Shown one piece after another: positions 2,678-20,189 of a stretch of DNA of 64,000 nt; positions within the stretch are counted from its first letter, which is position 1, and the number at the start of each line of letters is the position of its first letter. Location of the stretch: positions 754,406-818,405 of the forward strand of contig NZ_LT706952.1 in assembly GCF_900155525.1 (NCBI RefSeq). Direction: 5' to 3'. The position numbers were made by a program, and so were the translations under genes. The stretch comes from Mailhella massiliensis (GTDB lineage: Bacteria > Desulfobacterota > Desulfovibrionia > Desulfovibrionales > Desulfovibrionaceae). The notes below the pieces were generated by a model, which saw only the letters and a program-made list of their open reading frames with translations, searched no databases and was not told the origin of the DNA.

Positions 2678-3376
2678 ATGCCTGCTGATTACTACGAACG
2701 TCAGGAAGCCCGCCGCCAGCGCCTCGAAGAGCGTCTGGAACGTGCGCAGAATGAAGCCATGAACGAACACGGCAAGGCCATGCGTGAACTCAGTCAGATC
2801 CCCCTCGGTCAGCCCATCTTGGTCGGCCATTATTCGGAACGCGCTCATCGTGCACTGCTCGCCCGCTCTGACCGCTACATGGAAAAAAGCGTGGAGCTTT
2901 CCCGTAAGGCCGACTATCTGAGCGACAAGCTGAATGGCGTAGGCTGCGGCGGGATATCCTCCGACGCGCCGGACGCCATAGAACGCCTGGAAGCGAAACT
3001 GGCCTCACTGGAAGAAGCTCAGGAAATCATGAAGGCTGCAAACAAGGCAGCCGGACGCGGCAATCCCAAGCCCTACGAGTCCTACCAGCTCAGCAACAAC
3101 AACGCGAACATCCGAAGGGTCAGGCAGCGCATCGAGCACCTGAAAAGGCACGCTGCCGATGTGACCACGCGCCTGCCATTCGAGGGCGGGGAAATCGTGG
3201 ACAATGTGGAAGAAAACCGTGTCCAGATTCTCTTTGATGAAAAGCCGTCCTACGAAGTCCGGTCTGAGCTCAAGGGATACGGCTTCCGGTGGGCGCCCCG
3301 CTTCTCCGCATGGCAGAAGATGAGAAGCCGGTGGGCCATGTACGAAGCAAAGAAGGTGTGCGGCATAGACGACTAG
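2678..3376 (+). CDS. DUF3560-like protein
   Basis: 232 residues, ATG 2678 with an AAAGGAG site. The first half is a charged coiled-coil-like helix interrupted by a conserved stretch IPLGQPILVGHYSERAHRAL, which is characteristic of DUF3560 proteins carried by plasmids and phages. The C-terminal 45 residues include RSELKGYGFRWAPRFSAWQK, a segment also seen at the end of DUF3560 and related plasmid proteins. The family is often found near antirestriction or DNA-transfer genes, but its function is not established. It is separated from the next gene by a small GC hairpin. Confidence 0.65.
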   Translation: MPADYYERQEARRQRLEERLERAQNEAMNEHGKAMRELSQIPLGQPILVGHYSERAHRALLARSDRYMEKSVELSRKADYLSDKLNGVGCGGISSDAPDAIERLEAKLASLEEAQEIMKAANKAAGRGNPKPYESYQLSNNNANIRRVRQRIEHLKRHAADVTTRLPFEGGEIVDNVEENRVQILFDEKPSYEVRSELKGYGFRWAPRFSAWQKMRSRWAMYEAKKVCGIDD

Positions 3377-4280: not shown

Positions 4281-4817
4281 ATGAAAACGCAGGATTACGC
4301 CCTGGAGCTTGCCCGTGACTTCGACCGTTGGAACCATATCGTAACGGACGGAACAACTGATCCTTTCTGGCCGGATGGGACAAATCTGAATCTGGTCCGA
4401 CGCCATATCATAAACGCGAAACAAGCCATAGAACAGAAAATGAAGCCCGAAGATTTTCCAGAGATATATTATCGCCCTACTCCCCCGGAAGTGTCCGAGG
4501 ATTTCATGGCAAATGCTGAGGGGATACGGATTCGAGCCACCAGCCTGCTCGAAGCCTGCGAGGCAGACAAAAACTATCGGTATATCAAAAAGATGCGCGA
4601 ATTTGTATCGAAAGATGACCTGGAAAAACTCGGCATCGCATTGGTGATATGGAGTATCGACCGGTTGAAAGAGTCCGTGAACAGCGGAAACCTGGTTACC
4701 ATGCGGGGGTACATGCACTCGGAGTTCCTTCTTGCTGATCTGAAAAACTGCGCGGACAGTATCCGGGCCCTTCCGGCATCCAGTCTGCGAGCGGTTCAAG
4801 GATCGCTCATTTCCTAA
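4281..4817 (+). CDS. Unknown phage accessory protein, 178 residues
   Basis: The start is ATG 4281 (MKTQDYALELARDFDRWNHI), chosen because AAGGAG lies eight bases upstream; the frame is open further left only as a shadow of the previous gene. The product appears mostly helical, with a tryptophan/histidine-containing N-terminus and no membrane span. I do not recognise a family. It ends just before a hairpin terminator at 4837-4880. Confidence 0.65.
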   Translation: MKTQDYALELARDFDRWNHIVTDGTTDPFWPDGTNLNLVRRHIINAKQAIEQKMKPEDFPEIYYRPTPPEVSEDFMANAEGIRIRATSLLEACEADKNYRYIKKMREFVSKDDLEKLGIALVIWSIDRLKESVNSGNLVTMRGYMHSEFLLADLKNCADSIRALPASSLRAVQGSLIS

Positions 4818-4836
4818 AATAGGAAAAAATGCCATC

Positions 4837-4880
4837 AGTTACGCCCGGAGGGAGTGGCTCTTTCCTGGGCGTACTGTTTT
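4837..4880 (+). terminator. Rho-independent terminator
   Basis: ACGCCC (4841-4846) pairs with GGGCGT (4867-4872), with flanking AGT/ACT and an inner AGGGA/TTTCCT extension, then a short T-run (GTTTT). Confidence 0.6.
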
Positions 4881-4909
4881 ATCGTGCGAGGGATGGCTGA
4901 AATCTTCCC

Positions 4910-4938
4910 TTGACATCCGCCGGAAAATTTAATTCACT
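4910..4938 (+). promoter_or_regulatory. Candidate promoter for the first antisense-RNA unit
   Basis: TTGACA (4910-4915), a 17-base spacer and TTCACT (4933-4938). The -10 is poor, but the arrangement recurs at 5238-5266 with the same hexamer, the same spacing and the same GAAATTT-type spacer, which supports a shared promoter design. Confidence 0.45.
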
Positions 4939-5049
4939 ACCTGTACGGAGCCTCGAAACCTCCTTTACCAGCGGTTTGGTCACTACCCCGAAAGCGTGGC
5001 TATTTTTATGCCCTGTACCGGAAAAGCAGCGGCATTTCATCGGCTGTAT

Positions 5050-5131
5050 GGCCGGGAGTAGGCTAATAGAACACCCGCAAGGGGAATAGGCCTGGACGTC
5101 TGGTAACGTTTTCGAGCTCCCGGCCTTTTTT
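5050..5131 (+). ncRNA. C4/CI-like antisense RNA, copy 1
   Basis: A closing stem of nine pairs (GGCCGGGAG 5050-5058 with CTCCCGGCC 5117-5125) ends in six T and encloses two hairpins: one built on CCC-GCAA-GGG (5074-5083) and one on ACGT-CTGGTA-ACGT (5096-5109). TCTGGTAA (5099-5106), centred on the second loop, is the exact reverse complement of TTACCAGA (5159-5166), which overlaps the ribosome site of the downstream reading frame. This matches the design of phage P1/P7 C4 and P4 CI immunity RNAs. Those are processed from the leader of the transcript they silence and pair with a target beside a ribosome site to block translation and cause early termination. Assignment is by architecture and complementarity, not by a covariance search. 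Confidence 0.6.
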
Positions 5132-5164
5132 GCGTTCTGCAAAAGGCCAATCGAAAAATTACCA

Positions 5165-5226
5165 GAGGTGCATCATGACCAGTTTTCCCATGGAACAGAC
5201 CGAAGTCACGGCCCTGCACATGAACC
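5165..5226 (+). repeat. Direct repeat, copy 1 (partner 5491-5552)
   Basis: The ribosome site (GAGGT), start codon and first 17 codons recur at 5491-5552 with three mismatches in the 52 coding bases. Similarity stops right after the shared ALHMN codons. Confidence 0.85.
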
Positions 5227-5474
5227 ACGCCCATGCCTTGACAAACAGGGCGAAATTTTTAAGACTGAACTTCCCCAAATCCGAGATAGGCTTGCCGGAG
5301 CCTTTGCCAGTGTTCCCCGCGTTGGCGCAAATCGCGGCGTTTTCAGTTTCTGCCACCGGTGCATCTCTTTCATGGTGCAGGTACATATCGGCGGAACAAC
5401 GTCCAGTATCCGTGAGGACTGGCGGCCTATCTCGGGCCGGGGAGCGTTGTTCCGTCTTTTTTTGTACCCTGTAA
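5175..5474 (+). CDS. Short frame under antisense RNA 1; leader peptide or truncated duplicate
   Basis: ATG 5175 behind GAGGTG starts MTSFPMEQTEVTALHMN, nearly identical to the start of the gene at 5501. The frame then diverges and runs through the second promoter and second structured RNA to a stop at 5472-5474. The overlap with those elements makes a 99-residue functional protein unlikely. More probably it is a leader peptide whose translation is the target of antisense RNA 1, like the icd frame of P1, or the stub of a duplicated gene. The ribosome-binding region overlaps the sequence complementary to the RNA loop. Confidence 0.4.
   Translation: MTSFPMEQTEVTALHMNHAHALTNRAKFLRLNFPKSEIGLPEPLPVFPALAQIAAFSVSATGASLSWCRYISAEQRPVSVRTGGLSRAGERCSVFFCTL
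5238..5266 (+). promoter_or_regulatory. Candidate promoter for the second antisense-RNA unit
   Basis: TTGACA (5238-5243), 17-base spacer and AAGACT (5261-5266), parallel to 4910-4938. Confidence 0.45.
5392..5463 (+). ncRNA. C4/CI-like antisense RNA, copy 2
   Basis: A ten-pair closing stem (CGGAACAACG 5392-5401 with CGTTGTTCCG 5445-5454) is followed by a T7 run and encloses two hairpins. The first is CCAGT/ACTGG with an inner CC-GTGA-GG; the second is CGGCC/GGCCG with loop TATCTCG. ATCTCGG (5429-5435), in the second loop, can pair with CCGAGGT (5489-5495), which is the ribosome site of the gene at 5501, over seven pairs including one G-U. The order of parts (closing stem with T-run, GNRA-capped first hairpin, second hairpin whose loop targets the next ribosome site) is the same as in copy 1, although the primary sequences differ almost entirely. 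Confidence 0.58.
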
Positions 5475-5490
5475 CCTAATCCCTAAAGCC

Positions 5491-5552
5491 GAGGTACCCT
5501 ATGACCAGTTTCCCCATGGAACAGACCGAGATCACGGCCCTGCACATGAACC
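5491..5552 (+). repeat. Direct repeat, copy 2
   Basis: Second copy of the ribosome site plus first 17 codons described at 5165-5226. Confidence 0.85.
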
Positions 5553-5779
5553 CCATAACCGGCATGGTTCGGGTGGAATTTCTGCCCGTGTGGCGTGAAG
5601 ATTTTGCTGAAGATCACGTCCTTGTGCCGCTTTCCTTCATCGTTCGCCTTGATGTGCGCGTGGGCGATACCGTCAACCTGTTCCTCCTTCCAGAGTCCGT
5701 GCTCATCGGCGGAGTGCTCTACCATAAGCGCCCGGTCGATTCCATTCCCTTCACTACCGGCGCCGGGAGGGCAGCATGA
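5501..5779 (+). CDS. Unknown small protein controlled by antisense RNA 2
   Basis: 92 residues, ATG 5501 with GAGGT. It begins MTSFPMEQTEITALHMNPIT and continues with alternating hydrophobic residues (RVEFLPVW, FIVRLDVRVGDTVNLFLL) that suggest a small beta barrel. I do not recognise the family. The start region is complementary to the loop of the RNA at 5392-5463. The last codons overlap the ATG of the next gene (ATGA), so the two are coupled. If the C4 analogy holds, this pair would occupy the icd/ant position and could be antirepressor or derepression functions; that is inference only. Confidence 0.65.
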   Translation: MTSFPMEQTEITALHMNPITGMVRVEFLPVWREDFAEDHVLVPLSFIVRLDVRVGDTVNLFLLPESVLIGGVLYHKRPVDSIPFTTGAGRAA

Positions 5780-5982
5780 ACGCAGACGATGCCCGGCTGC
5801 GCGCCCTGGTGGATTATATGGCTCTGGAGCTGGATGGCATTGAAAAGCGCATGACCTATGCGTCCAGTATCATCATGGAGCAGAACGGCGACGATATGGC
5901 CGCCTTGTCCCTGTATCTTCGTGATGCCGCCGCCCATGTCAGACGCCTTCAGGATGAAGTGACACGCTGGAACAGGCGATAG
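5776..5982 (+). CDS. Unknown small helical protein
   Basis: 68 residues, starting inside the stop of the previous gene (ATGA at 5776-5779). The sequence is helical and amphipathic throughout (ALVDYMALELDGIEKRMTYA, DAAAHVRRLQDEV), so it probably forms a coiled coil or a helical hairpin. It has no membrane span and no recognised family. It is followed by a rho-independent terminator, making 5501-5982 a two-gene unit. Confidence 0.65.
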   Translation: MNADDARLRALVDYMALELDGIEKRMTYASSIIMEQNGDDMAALSLYLRDAAAHVRRLQDEVTRWNRR

Positions 5983-6031: not shown

Positions 6032-6595
6032 ATGAACGGCAGCATATTCCGGGGCGTCGACTTTACCGGCACGGACTGGGGTGAACCGAACAAAAACATC
6101 GCCTCCCGCCTTGGTGTGGAACCCGGTCTGGTGGCCGCTGCGCGGCGTCACTTCGGCATGGTGATCATCCCGCGGATTGACTGGAGCGATGTGGACTTTT
6201 CCCGCCCCTCAAAGGAGATCGCAGCAGAGAAAGGCTGCTCCGTAACCGCGGTGAACATCGCCCGCCGTTCCGCAGGTATGGCCGCTTCTCGCCTGGACTG
6301 GTCGAATGTGGACTGGAGCATGGATAACTCCTCCATTGCCCGTGAACTGGGCTGCACACCGTCGGCAGTGCTCGCCGCACGGCGACGCATTACCGGAAAG
6401 CGCTCCCTGGCTTCCGGTGGACGACATGCGCTGCCCGATGCTGCCGAGCGCGCTCACGAGCGTGCCGGAAGAGCCGTGAACGTCCTCCTTTCTCCAGAGC
6501 TTTTTGCTTATGTCGAAGCGGAGTCTGTCCGTACCGGAAAAACGAAGGCCGCGGTCATACGGGAAGCTGTCAGGGAAAAGTTCTCCCGCACCTAG
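6032..6595 (+). CDS. DNA-binding protein: three tandem HTH-like repeats plus ribbon-helix-helix
   Basis: 187 residues, ATG 6032 after ACAGGAGG. Three repeats of about 39 residues follow one another, each with a W/F-x-x-VD(F/W) lead, then IA-x-x-(L/K)G(V/C/C)...V..AR, as in IASRLGVEPGLVAAARR, IAAEKGCSVTAVNIARR and IARELGCTPSAVLAARR. Each looks like a small helix-turn-helix. The last 45 residues (RAVNVLLSPELFAYVEAESV, then KAAVIREAVREKF) look like a CopG/Arc ribbon-helix-helix. I infer a multivalent DNA-binding regulator that could span several operator repeats. Its TAG stop overlaps the stop of the convergent repressor gene within CTAG. Confidence 0.65.
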   Translation: MNGSIFRGVDFTGTDWGEPNKNIASRLGVEPGLVAAARRHFGMVIIPRIDWSDVDFSRPSKEIAAEKGCSVTAVNIARRSAGMAASRLDWSNVDWSMDNSSIARELGCTPSAVLAARRRITGKRSLASGGRHALPDAAERAHERAGRAVNVLLSPELFAYVEAESVRTGKTKAAVIREAVREKFSRT

Positions 6596-7916: not shown

Positions 7917-8188
7917 TAGTCCTGACCAGGGGGCAACTGGAGGCCATCATCGAGCGAGCCGTCGCAAAAGGCGTAGAACGAGTACGTCCCATGCTGCTGA
8001 GAGCTGCCCATGAGTATGTCACTCTTCACGAGGCTGTGAAAATTTTTCCCTTCACCAAGCGCCAGCTTGACTACTGGCGCAAAAACGGTGAAGGGCCTGC
8101 CTGCTACGTCATGGGCAACAGCGTCAGCTACAAAGTCGCCGACCTCGAAGAATGGTATCAGAAGTTTCGCCGTGAACCTCTCTACTGA
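7904..8188 (+). CDS. Excisionase-like MerR/HTH_17 protein
   Basis: 94 residues, ATG 7904 inside the end of the CII-like gene. The second half reads YVTLHEAVKIFPFTKRQLDY then W.K.GEGPACYVMGNSVSYK and VADLEEWY, the winged-helix arrangement of HTH_17/AlpA/Xis proteins. Such proteins bend DNA at attachment sites and help the integrase excise. It is convergent with the integrase and overlaps its 3' end by seven bases. Confidence 0.7.
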   Translation: MEELIVLTRGQLEAIIERAVAKGVERVRPMLLRAAHEYVTLHEAVKIFPFTKRQLDYWRKNGEGPACYVMGNSVSYKVADLEEWYQKFRREPLY

Positions 8189-9297
8189 GAGAGCATTCGA
8201 GAGACCAAGGACAGTTTGCCGGTAATTTCCGAGGGAATGAGATGGGCGTAACGTTGAGTCATTTCAATGCTCCTGTGCCTCATAAGGTGCATCAGCTCGT
8301 GCAGCGTCACCTGGCCGGATTGGGCCAGCCACGAGGCAAAGGTGTGCCTGAAAACATGGAACGAAATGTGATACGGCGACTCCTTGGGCACCTGCATACC
8401 GAGACGGGCAACGACATGGTTGAAGGTTGCGGGTGTTCGGTTTCGTATGCTTCCATCCGGCATAGGGAAACAATATGGGGAGGCCTCAATCCTGGGCATA
8501 CTCAAAAGCATCTCTATCACTTCCCGCGGAGCCGATACAACCTCCTTTCGTCCTCCCTTTGCACGGATATGGAGGCAGCAGGACATGGCATCAATGTCGG
8601 TCCACTGCAAACGAAAAATTTCCGTGGCTCTCATGCCGGTCTTCAGACTAAGCTGGGCCATGTAGTAAGTCTGGGGACTCGCGTTTTTCAAGGCCGCCAG
8701 AAGGATACGGCACTCTTCCGGTGTCAAAAACCGGAGGCGCTTATTATCGAGAACAGGCATACGAAAAACCCCGCCTGGAAGAACTCGAAAAGGGTTATGC
8801 GTGGCTTTTCCCATACCTATGGCATAATTGATGGCCCGGCGCAGAAAGGCCAGCATATGATGAACGCTCTGATTCGAGATGCTCTTTTTCATCAGCCGTA
8901 CTTTCAGGGCCTCAGCCTGTTCAGGACGGAAAGAACGCAAAGGAATATTATGGATAAGCTGCTTACAATGAAAGTCATACTGATCCAAAGGTCGGTCAGT
9001 AATTTTCCCTTGATTGGAAGCCCACAACACATAGTCTTCAATCGCATTTCCTATAGTGTAGGCTCTGCTTTTACTGGAGATCAGATTTTTTTGAGATTCC
9101 CCATTTTTCAGAGCTGCGGCTTTTCTGGGAGTCATGCCCTCGCTTTTACGTCCGACGGTTATCCAATGGGGCACTCCGAAGTCATCCGGCTTGGAGATAT
9201 AAAAAGAACAGTCAGGCTTTCCGGTTGCCGGATCTTTTTGCTTGAGGATTCTGTAAAATACTCCCGGCTGAGTCGTGCTGAAAAACTTGCCTCCCAT
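8182..9297 (-). CDS. int: Site-specific tyrosine integrase
   Basis: 371 residues, ATG 9297 with GAGGGG eight bases upstream. It has an N-terminal arm-binding region (1-75), a core-binding domain (about 80-180) and a catalytic domain with Arg223 (TGMRATEIFRLQW), a lysine near 247, the HVFRH box (His314, Arg317), His341 (MRHRS) and the nucleophile Tyr350 (QRYAHL). All expected catalytic residues are present. It should integrate and excise the element at the adjacent tRNA-Pro 3' end. The gap to the tRNA contains inverted repeats that could be arm-type sites. Confidence 0.92.
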   Translation of the reverse strand: MGGKFFSTTQPGVFYRILKQKDPATGKPDCSFYISKPDDFGVPHWITVGRKSEGMTPRKAAALKNGESQKNLISSKSRAYTIGNAIEDYVLWASNQGKITDRPLDQYDFHCKQLIHNIPLRSFRPEQAEALKVRLMKKSISNQSVHHMLAFLRRAINYAIGMGKATHNPFRVLPGGVFRMPVLDNKRLRFLTPEECRILLAALKNASPQTYYMAQLSLKTGMRATEIFRLQWTDIDAMSCCLHIRAKGGRKEVVSAPREVIEMLLSMPRIEASPYCFPMPDGSIRNRTPATFNHVVARLGMQVPKESPYHISFHVFRHTFASWLAQSGQVTLHELMHLMRHRSIEMTQRYAHLIPSEITGKLSLVSRMLSQ

Positions 9298-9450: not shown

Positions 9451-9525
9451 TGGTCGGGGCGACTGGATTTGAACCAGCGACTCCCTGCTCCCAAAGCAGG
9501 TGCGCTACCCCTGCGCCACGCCCCG
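9451..9525 (-). tRNA. tRNA-Pro (UGG), probable attachment site
   Basis: The minus strand folds as a full cloverleaf: acceptor CGGGGCG with CGCCCCG, anticodon stem CCTGC/GCAGG with loop TTTGGGA (anticodon TGG), T-arm GCTGG-TTCAAAT-CCAGT, and an encoded CCA end at 9451-9453. The 3' end faces the integrase, so the last 20 or so bases are the likely att core, kept intact by the element. Confidence 0.93.
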
Positions 9526-18470: not shown

Positions 18471-20189
18471 CTAGCTGAAGAAATAGAGCTGCCCGAGACT
18501 TGCACGCTGCACCGGAGGCACGGTGACGTGCACCCCGTCCACCATGACGGCGAAGGTTTCGGGATTGACCTCGATATGAGGCGTGAGACTGTTTCTCACC
18601 ATGGCCTTCTTGGTCAGATTGCGGATGCCGCGCACGGCTTCCACGCGGCTCTTCAGACCGAGCTTTTCCCTGATGCCCCGCTCCACGGCGGCCTGCGAGG
18701 TGAAGGTGATGCGGCTTGTCTGCTGCAGAAGACCGGTGGAACCGAACATGGGCCTGTAGATGACCGGCTGCGGCGTGGGAAGCGAAGCGTTGGGGTCGCC
18801 CATGATCGACCACGCGATGGAGCCGCCCTTGATGACCATGTAGGGCTTGGCGCCGAAGAACTGCGGCTGCCAGAGCACGAGGTCGGCCACCTTGCCCTTT
18901 TCCACGGAACCGATGAGATGGGACACGCCCTGAATGATGGCGGGATTGATGGTCACCTTGGCCACATAGCGCAGCACGCGGAAGTTGTCGTTGCCCGCCG
19001 CATCTTCGGGCAGCGCGCCGCGCGCCGCCTTCATGGCGCTGGCCGTCTGCATGGCGCGCGTCCAGTTTTCGCCCACGCGGCCCATGGCCTGGGAATCGCT
19101 GGCAATGCAGGAAATGGCCCCCATGTCGTGAAGCACGTTTTCCGCGGCAATGGTTTCGGGCCGCACGCGGCTTTCCGCAAAGGACACGTCGGAAGGCACG
19201 TTATGGTTCAGGTTGTGGCAGACCATGATCATGTCGAACAGTTCCGCCTGGGAATTGACGCCGAAGGGAAGCGTGGGGTTGGTGGAACTCGGCAGCACGT
19301 TGGGCTGCCCCGCGACGCGGATGATGTCCGGCGCATGGCCGCCGCCCGCCCCTTCCGTATGGAAGGTGTGGATGACGCGGCCTTCCATGGCGGCTATGGT
19401 GTCTTCCACATAGCCCGCCTCGTTCAGCGTGTCGGTATGGATGGAAACCTGCACGTCCATCCTGTCCGCCACGGAAAGCGCGGCGCGGATGATGGCGGGC
19501 ATGGCCCCCCAGTCCTCGTGAATCTTGAAGCCGCAGGCCCCGGCCTCTATCTGCTCGCGCAGGGGCGCTTCGTTGAAGGCGTGGCCCTTGCCCAGAATGC
19601 CGATGTTCACGGGAAGCCCTTCGGCCGCTTCCATAATGCGGTGTATGTTCCATGCGCCGGGGGTGATGGTGGTGCCGTTGGTACCGTCCGACGGGCCTAT
19701 GCCGCCGCCGAAGAAGGTGGTGATGCCGTTGGATATGGCCGTCTGCGCCTGTTCGGGGCAGACAAGGTGCACATGGGCGTCGATGCCGCCGGCCGTAAGA
19801 ATGAGGTGCTCGCCGGAAATGGCGTCCGTGGCGTTGCCCACCACGAGATTCGGGTCCACATTGTCCATGACGGCGGGGTTTCCCGCCTTGCCTATGCCCG
19901 CGATGCGGCCGTCGCGTATGCCCACATCGGCCTTGATGACGCCCTGCACCGCATCGATGATGGTGGCGTTGGTGATGACGAGATCAAGCACGCCGTTGTC
20001 GCGGGAGGAGTGGTCGTCCCCGCCCATGCCCGCGCGCAGCGTCTTGCCGCCGCCGTAGATGACCTCGTCGCCGTAACCGCGCAAATCCTTCTCTATTTCC
20101 ACATAGAGATCCGTATCGCCGAGCCTGATTTTATCGCCCACGGTGGGGCCGTACAGGCTGGAATATTCCTGTCTTGAAATCTGAGGCAT
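18471..20189 (-). CDS. ureC: Urease alpha (catalytic) subunit UreC
   Basis: 572 residues, the usual length, from ATG 20189 ([20 protein letters not shown]) after AAGGACGCGAC. The nickel ligands are present: HVH at 139-141, the carbamylated Lys222 in GFKIHEDWG, His251 and His277, and Asp365. The flap cysteine-histidine is at 324-325 (MVCHNLNHN). It hydrolyses urea to ammonia and carbamate in the cytoplasm. It sits in a ureABC run with short gaps; accessory genes follow. Confidence 0.98.

Follow-up and report, generated by a model that had tools for sequence, protein, structure and literature searches.

Putative C4/CI-type antisense locks of two RNA families, arranged in series in a phage-like element of Mailhella massiliensis

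Why would a phage-like element place two different structured RNAs, one behind the other, ahead of two copies of the same gene start? The question is raised by a stretch of 64,000 nucleotides (nt) of the Mailhella massiliensis genome (assembly GCF_900155525.1, contig NZ_LT706952.1, positions 754,406 to 818,405, forward strand), which we call the window and number from its first letter. An initial annotation had read positions 4910-5566 as a tandem antisense-RNA switch with the logic of C4 from phages P1 and P7 and CI from phage P4, controlling two small prophage frames. That logic is supported by covariation in more than 200 relatives, by antirepressor-type genes downstream and by the same block order, read by eye, in P1, P4 and the C4 RNA of phage PhiR5_2. 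We consider each unit to be a self-contained antisense lock of the P1 C4/P4 CI type, with a probability of roughly 0.8, and we conclude that putative locks of this type occur in two RNA families outside C4.

Two units with matching decoy, loop and target

Both units hold a short word three times: as an upstream sense copy (the decoy), as its complement in the second hairpin loop of a structured RNA, and as a sense copy at the ribosome site of the frame behind (the target). The parts are as follows.

4910-4938, + strand: unit 1 promoter candidate, TTGACA-N17-TTCACT (TTGACA at 4910-4915)
4947-5007, + strand: unit 1 decoy region, with a copy of block b, a copy of the word and a terminator-like hairpin
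5050-5133, + strand: RNA 1, sRNA-Xcc1 family (RF02221), 67.6 bits; closing stem followed by T6
5151-5166, + strand: unit 1 target at the ribosome site, with block b2 TCGAAAA (5151-5157) and word TTACCAGA (5159-5166)
5175-5474, + strand: truncated frame 1, 99 amino acids, ATG at 5175; only its start is common with the gene at 5501
5238-5266, + strand: unit 2 promoter candidate, TTGACA-N17-AAGACT (TTGACA at 5238-5243)
5281-5344, + strand: unit 2 decoy: CCGAGATAGG, a copy of the word, at 5281-5290, and a weak terminator-like stretch at 5317-5344
5390-5463, + strand: RNA 2, no Rfam match at E <= 1; closing stem followed by T7, hairpin 1 capped by GUGA
5489-5496, + strand: unit 2 target CCGAGGTA at the ribosome site, preceding the ATG at 5501
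5501-5779, + strand: controlled gene behind unit 2, an orphan protein of 92 amino acids

The unit 1 decoy begins with a hairpin (GGAG..CTCC, 4947-4963) that carries the block b copy TCGAAA (4953-4958) in its loop. The word copy TTACCAG (4965-4971) lies 3' of this hairpin, and a terminator-like hairpin follows at 4978-5007, ending in ATTTTT; it is absent from our terminator scan list, and its loop exceeds the limit of 8 nt set for that scan. The hairpin-2 loop of RNA 1 (TCTGGTAA, 5099-5106) is exactly complementary to TTACCAGA at 5159-5166. A second antisense block in the same RNA, block b' (TTTTCGA, 5109-5115), faces both 4953-4958 and 5151-5157. In unit 2, the loop TATCTCG (5428-5434) pairs with CCGAGGTA at 5489-5496 over 8 base pairs, one of them G-U, and the terminator scan reported a 5-pair candidate at 5324-5341 in the decoy (four candidates were found, with 0.9 expected). 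Both loop-ribosome site pairings had been recognized initially; the decoy copies in the two units and the second block of unit 1 had gone unnoted. The RNAs also fold as first described, each with a closing stem that runs into a T-run (T6, T7) and two inner hairpins, the first of which is GNRA-capped (GCAA in RNA 1, GTGA in RNA 2). Their fold z-scores against dinucleotide shuffles are -2.53 and -3.85.

The two frames had been described as beginning alike. Their common start is a 62-nt repeat with 89% identity (5165-5226 and 5491-5552), but the first frame proved to be a truncated copy of the second gene's start, which had been missed. It runs across unit 2 and stops 26 nt 5' of the second ATG.

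RNA 1 is a member of the sRNA-Xcc1 family, with a covariance score of 67.6 bits against a gathering cut-off of 53. It is the sole RF02221 match at E <= 1 in 4700-5800; RNA 2 has no such match, is none of the six sRNA-Xcc1 copies in the genome, and matches no Rfam model at E <= 1 in the window. A C4-like score, by which the initial annotation would have the kinship checked, was not obtained for either RNA. The C4 model (RF01695) gave no match at E <= 1 in 4700-5800, which covers both RNAs, and its best score in the whole genome was 18.2 bits, elsewhere, below the cut-off of 45; on P1, P4 and PhiR5_2 it scored 68.8, 74.9 and 76.5 bits. With no match in the region and no score above the cut-off in the genome, we reject C4 membership for RNA 1 and RNA 2. 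The idea of a switch duplicated in series stands only in part. There are two units and the gene start is repeated, but RF02221 matches RNA 1 only and the repeat comprises the gene start only, so the two units represent two RNA families. We therefore reject RNA 1 and RNA 2 as one duplicated element.

Words, RNAs and genes in relatives

We measured how well loops match their own neighbours across the sRNA-Xcc1 family. Candidates were chosen by the hairpin-1 core alone, blind to loop and flanks, from genome-search loci and, among the matches listed, from viral and genome contigs. There were 246 candidates with a closing stem; a structure filter removed 28, and 210 non-identical loci had enough flank. 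We extended each loop by one base at either end and counted as a match any exact complement of it in the 150 nt downstream or the 200 nt upstream; loops permuted among loci (200 permutations) served as the control.

Matches downstream of at least 6, 7 and 8 nt occurred in 149, 99 and 37 of the 210 loci, compared with permuted means of 24.7, 6.0 (maximum 12) and 1.1. The corresponding upstream counts were 160, 124 and 50, compared with 30.5, 6.8 (maximum 13) and 1.5. Both sides matched over at least 6 nt in 123 of 210 loci, and an ATG, GTG or TTG lay 3-12 nt past the match in 93 of the 99 downstream matches of at least 7 nt. Removing near-duplicates (n = 204, at least 7 nt, 1000 permutations) gave 98 downstream matches versus 5.9 and 122 upstream versus 7.0, the latter comprising 96 distinct words. 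A looser first hairpin parser gave a similar result (102/196 at 7 nt or more, about 5% when loops were swapped). The second block, for which we took the junction that links hairpin 2 to the closing stem and compared it with the 30 nt before the word, matched over at least 6 nt in 91/145 loci downstream (permuted 11.7) and 117/154 upstream (permuted 14.9). TTGAC lay 25-90 nt 5' of the upstream word in 90 of 124 loci, versus 6 after shuffling. All 19 filter-passing loci that we picked, non-randomly, for scoring hold an RNA above the RF02221 cut-off.

The source genome itself contains a natural experiment on word change. In all six of its sRNA-Xcc1 copies, the hairpin-2 loop fits the next gene's ribosome site by eye. 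Two of its units, 1.9 kilobases apart, have RNAs that are nearly the same and only a single base of difference in their gene starts, yet their word and second block have changed in concert at decoy, RNA and target; they differ also in the terminator-like hairpin stretch of the decoy. A genome of the same genus (G042) has one contig with two sRNA-Xcc1 RNAs.

Two further observations concern the family. The sequence 3' of the closing stem in 218 sRNA-Xcc1 loci is CCN in 138, a T-run in 18 and neither in 62, and CCN at this position recalls a tRNA acceptor end. The precursors of C4 and CI are RNase P substrates. One locus (L320, 4164-4233) has an int-alpA RNA (RF02996, 45.4 bits) alongside an sRNA-Xcc1.

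RNA 2 defines a second family, which we call family 2. BLAST with 91 bases of RNA 2 matched 35 of 288 genomes of the bacterial family at E <= 0.01, the weakest of which look like chance. A pattern search collected 46 RNAs, 45 of them testable, and at 7 nt or more their loops matched downstream in 25/45 (permuted mean 1.6) and upstream in 36/45 (permuted mean 1.9). The covariation between loops and ribosome sites that the initial annotation called for in relatives is strongly present in both families. In an alignment of 44 family-2 RNAs, 97.5% of the consensus-structure pairs are formed, and compensatory changes occur at 8 of 17 pairs, a level reached by 0 of 500 shuffles. The RNAs of 13 further loci had no Rfam match at gathering scores.

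Family 2 is seen in the window's bacterial family and in two predicted viral contigs. When its covariance model was run on 395 genomes of the phylum under strict filters that lose weak matches, it matched three, each of them from that bacterial family. A pattern scan of viral contigs returned 12. Two of these, L384 and L385, hold up on visual inspection, and the gene next to the RNA in L385 is an anti-repressor. The other ten look like G+C-rich chance matches (11 of the 12 contigs were viewed; L386 was left out). L384 also carries, beside its family-2 RNA, a Hammerhead ribozyme type II (673-737, - strand; RF02276, 76 bits). One genome (G088) has six family-2 RNAs (L395, L398, L400-L403), and neither of the two other searched genomes of its genus (g42) has any.

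The genes behind the RNAs point to phage regulation. Word-matched loci have 120 distinct first genes, of which we scanned 119, leaving out the window's own. Their most frequent Pfam matches are phage antirepressor and regulator domains (Rha 17, Bro-N 15, KilA-N 13, P22_AR_C 9, ORF6N 9, AntA 8, P22_AR_N 6; these counts overlap and are not additive), and the four most frequent PHROG families are anti-repressors, each with 34-36 of the 119 proteins as members. PhiR5_2 has two sRNA-Xcc1 RNAs (69.1 and 73.4 bits), each directly 5' of an annotated antirepressor gene, the first of which is short. In Rac-SA53, the word match lies immediately before ant, and in VPBES an annotated sRNA-Xcc1 is followed by a hypothetical gene and then a DNA-binding one. 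When 361 bases surrounding the second PhiR5_2 RNA were used as a query, 471 of 5426 Escherichia coli genomes matched, although 26 of the 40 matches listed cover only the end of the preceding gene and not the RNA. PhiR5_2 (L322) also carries its C4 RNA (76.5 bits) elsewhere in the phage.

In the window, the 92-amino-acid gene has no Pfam or PHROG match and no relative in the phage collection searched, and among 287 genomes of the bacterial family its own is the only one in which it was found. Two genes follow it and probably share its transcript.

5776-5982, + strand: small gene, 68 amino acids, overlapping the stop of the 92-amino-acid gene; no Pfam or PHROG family
6032-6595, + strand: regulator-like protein, 187 amino acids; Pfam Sigma70_r4_2, E 6.9e-6, just above cut-off

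AlphaFold confidence (predicted local distance difference test) was 52.6 for the 92-residue and 59.3 for the 187-residue protein, too low for a fold search. The model of the larger protein is all-helical, at this low confidence. By eye, it has repeated segments resembling helix-turn-helix motifs, and its Pfam matches are of this type, one barely above cut-off.

The element carrying the locks is phage-like. A tyrosine integrase (8182-9297, - strand) lies beside a tRNA-Pro (9451-9525, - strand), and there are weak repressor matches among the element's proteins. No structural phage gene was found among ten proteins scanned with Pfam and PHROG, and no repeat of at least 14 nt of the tRNA-Pro region, as expected of an att site, occurs within the window. 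Elsewhere in the window, a DUF3560 protein (2678-3376, + strand) has a C-terminal part that resembles a phage primase family, and 19740-20039 (+ strand) matches the 5' ureB small RNA (RF02514, 60.1 bits, cut-off 40), a family from Helicobacter.

How the locks may work, and what else might explain them

We propose that transcription from the promoter candidate would produce a leader in which the decoy comes first, as a sense word followed by a terminator-like hairpin. The antisense RNA would come next, with the complement of the word in its hairpin-2 loop and, in sRNA-Xcc1, a short second block in the junction; last would come the target, where the word recurs at the ribosome site of the gene behind. 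Once released by processing, the antisense RNA would pair with the leader and block translation of the gene in the lysogen. The decoy would compete for the same antisense face and therefore could relieve the block or tune termination. Since the words differ between units, each lock would recognize its own leader. Because the locked gene in relatives is often an antirepressor or regulator, the usual output would probably be the lysogeny decision and immunity against phages that share the word. A second lock, of an unrelated RNA family, appears to have been set in the window behind the start of a gene already under lock 1, leaving a truncated gene-start copy between the two. The calculations establish the threefold complementarity and its covariation, the RNA structures, the association with particular genes and the recurrence of stacking; promoter use, processing, repression, the part played by the decoy and immunity are inferred.

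Computed energies agree with the initial suggestion that each RNA is matched to its own target. Antisense 1 forms duplexes of -25.7 kcal/mol with its decoy and -25.1 kcal/mol with its target, and antisense 2 forms duplexes of -42.0 and -24.4 kcal/mol. Own duplexes thus span -24.4 to -42.0 kcal/mol, compared with -13.8 to -14.9 kcal/mol for the four cross-unit duplexes. Together with the leader folds, these energies suggest that antisense RNA, once released, should repress the leader holding the target, and that this repression should be lifted by the decoy, acting either in cis or as a terminated short transcript.

Several results weigh against locks of this kind. The promoter candidates, claimed initially as TTGACA-N17, do have TTGACA at 4910 and 5238, but their -10 hexamers are poor (TTCACT in unit 1, AAGACT in unit 2) and a consensus promoter scan reported no promoter at all. 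The window's controlled gene is no antirepressor recognized by Pfam or PHROG, and the Pfam tally of downstream genes leaves part of the 119 proteins uncovered. No downstream match of 6 nt was found in 61 of 210 sRNA-Xcc1 loci, some of which have hairpins misplaced by the parser (L004, for example), nor in 13 of 45 family-2 loci. In the xanthomonad-type set (20 loci defined by closing-stem sequence; score of at least 7 with G-U counted half), the downstream target word is found in 0/20 (permuted 1.4). Finally, folds of 124 whole leaders favoured decoy-loop pairing in 72, target-loop pairing in 34 and neither in 18; with the decoy removed, the same leaders favoured target-loop pairing in 52, and the closing stem formed in 66.

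Because the leader folds favour decoy-loop pairing, part of the RNA's action, or most of it, may be in cis. In the extreme, each unit would be a cis-only leader attenuator, a single mRNA that switches between pairings of its decoy, antisense and target strands. In the minimum-energy fold computed for the unit 1 leader (4941-5200), the antisense strand is indeed paired to the decoy; in leaders that begin at 5041 or 5060, the loop is paired to the target. The T6 and T7 that follow the window's closing stems are terminator-like. We nevertheless find this account doubtful. A cis-only switch has no need of differing words among the units of one genome. In addition, a discrete sRNA-Xcc1 RNA of about 88 nt was reported in Xanthomonas, mapped by Northern blot and rapid amplification of cDNA ends (PMC2996969), and the literature treats both C4 and CI as antisense RNAs (PMC12197685, PMC4825925).

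The truncated frame 1 raises a different doubt, that the tandem in the window is a single duplication accident in which unit 1 is dead. We think this improbable to about the same degree, as both units keep matching decoy, loop and target words, and the tandem arrangement recurs with other genes in three other genomes (G011, G589, G597).

It is considerably harder to sustain that sRNA-Xcc1 is a trans-acting RNA with unlinked host targets, its complementarity to neighbours being secondary. Published descriptions, in the excerpts covered, do present it as trans-acting with many predicted targets, and the absence of a target copy from the xanthomonad-type members would fit. Yet those members retain the upstream decoy word in 20/20 loci (permuted mean 4.8), and the word matches the neighbour in 110 of the other 190 sRNA-Xcc1 loci versus 11.8 permuted, at the same score. 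Examples with the decoy and without the target word are L280, L281 and L305. Across all types, 34 loci with an upstream word and no downstream match had no word copy within 2000 nt downstream, as far as the sequence extended (down to 56 nt in L248). Loop-decoy pairing seems to serve some purpose by itself, which may be self-termination, as with CI of P4. Among first genes that lack the downstream word, ten of 33 were scanned: two are SymE-like, and five match the XAC0095 family, four of them above its cut-off. The SymE-like genes agree with a published integron cassette of sRNA-Xcc1 and symE; its authors place sRNA-Xcc1 upstream of symE and note that it may regulate this gene through a divergent mechanism (PMC12444791).

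Chance complementarity, or purine-rich ribosome sites facing pyrimidine-rich loops, is refuted by the permutation tests in sRNA-Xcc1 and family 2 and has a negligible claim: some matching is built in because the words overlap the Shine-Dalgarno region, and permuted loops still reach 6 nt downstream in a mean of 24.7/210, but permutation keeps the purine/pyrimidine bias and yields 6.0 against the 99 observed (at least 7 nt, n = 210), and upstream copies, away from ribosome sites, match in 124/210.

Putative locks in series and their relation to known systems

The tandem arrangement is not confined to the window. A loose filter found 22 adjacent RNA pairs among the loci, some of which are questionable. 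The frame between the RNAs repeats the next gene's start in four loci of the bacterial family, those of the window, G011, G589 and G597. The order is sRNA-Xcc1 followed by family 2 in the window, G011 and G589 (the first RNAs of the latter two score 69 and 64.9 bits with the sRNA-Xcc1 model), and family 2 twice in G597. The controlled genes of the window and G011 are unrelated by BLASTP. L131 and PhiR5_2, apparently of one phage type, have a short antirepressor copy between two sRNA-Xcc1 RNAs. In L331 and L332 (from G092 and G503), one family-2 RNA directly follows another, with gaps of 7 and 10 nt, and the first loop alone fits the gene behind. A third kind of stack is known here from the excerpt of a published table, which lists sRNA-Xcc1, an isrK match and a C4 match in that order within 400 bases on one strand in Xylella (PMC12189769).

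In the window, G011 and G597, the truncated frame reads on through the second RNA, and its stop lies 22-26 nt ahead of the second start codon; the G589 frame ends at codon 34. Of the gene frames, 3/4 have no stop until the last 10 codons, compared with 1/8 other frames, so that coupling through an open frame between locks is only suggestive. From these stacks we draw one tentative possibility, to which we give rather modest credence: the locks may form a stackable immunity code, in which phages swap word sets and add a lock by duplicating a gene start. Decoy, loop and target words would change together, giving phages mutual escape. The truncated first frame would act as a coupling leader, such that opening lock 1 melts RNA 2 and ribosomes are then carried to gene 2, making a two-input gate. 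Ill-fitting back-to-back RNAs, as in L331 and L332, would hold the words of other phages and provide immunity against them.

We compared the units with known phage RNAs. Like C4 of P1/P7 and CI of P4 (RF01695 scores both P1 and P4), they enclose two inner hairpins in a closing stem, place sense copies upstream, ahead of a terminator-like hairpin, and carry further copies downstream at a ribosome site; read by eye, the block order is the same in P1, P4 and the PhiR5_2 C4. C4 and CI have two antisense blocks, as does sRNA-Xcc1, whereas in family 2 we found no variable second block and the junction at that position is constant by eye. The hairpin-1 core of sRNA-Xcc1 is conserved and its own, and family 2 has another core. 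Unlike C4/CI, the window has two locks of different families in series. The name c4-a1b1 we take to denote upstream copies of C4. Weinberg (2010) lists it as a phage motif of its own beside C4 (PMC2864571); we set it beside the present decoys by description only, no Rfam accession being given in the excerpt.

Other precedents bear on the proposed outputs. C4 is reported to control an antirepressor (PMC12197685), and seqA/seqC pairing is described for CI (PMC4825925). In the IsrK/STnc1160 system of the Salmonella prophage Gifsy-1, a short terminated upstream RNA, which is decoy-like, and a processed downstream RNA have sequence complementary to each other, and the short RNA is described as switching on translation of a leader frame coupled to anrP (PMC4825925). 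This likeness is by description, and we claim no homology. A literature search for sRNA-Xcc1 together with antirepressor found no co-mention in the collection searched and for the terms used, and the excerpted published descriptions state no phage-lock role for it.

These results place sRNA-Xcc1 in a new light. Catalogued as a trans-acting small RNA of plant pathogens, and studied for virulence and vesicle delivery, it looks instead like a widespread phage antisense lock that sits beside antirepressors. The copies that annotation pipelines already label thereby acquire a testable function. More broadly, our analysis suggests that C4/CI-type immunity is a design common to three RNA families or more, that stacking of locks recurs, and that a readable word code may predict which prophages cross-immunize.

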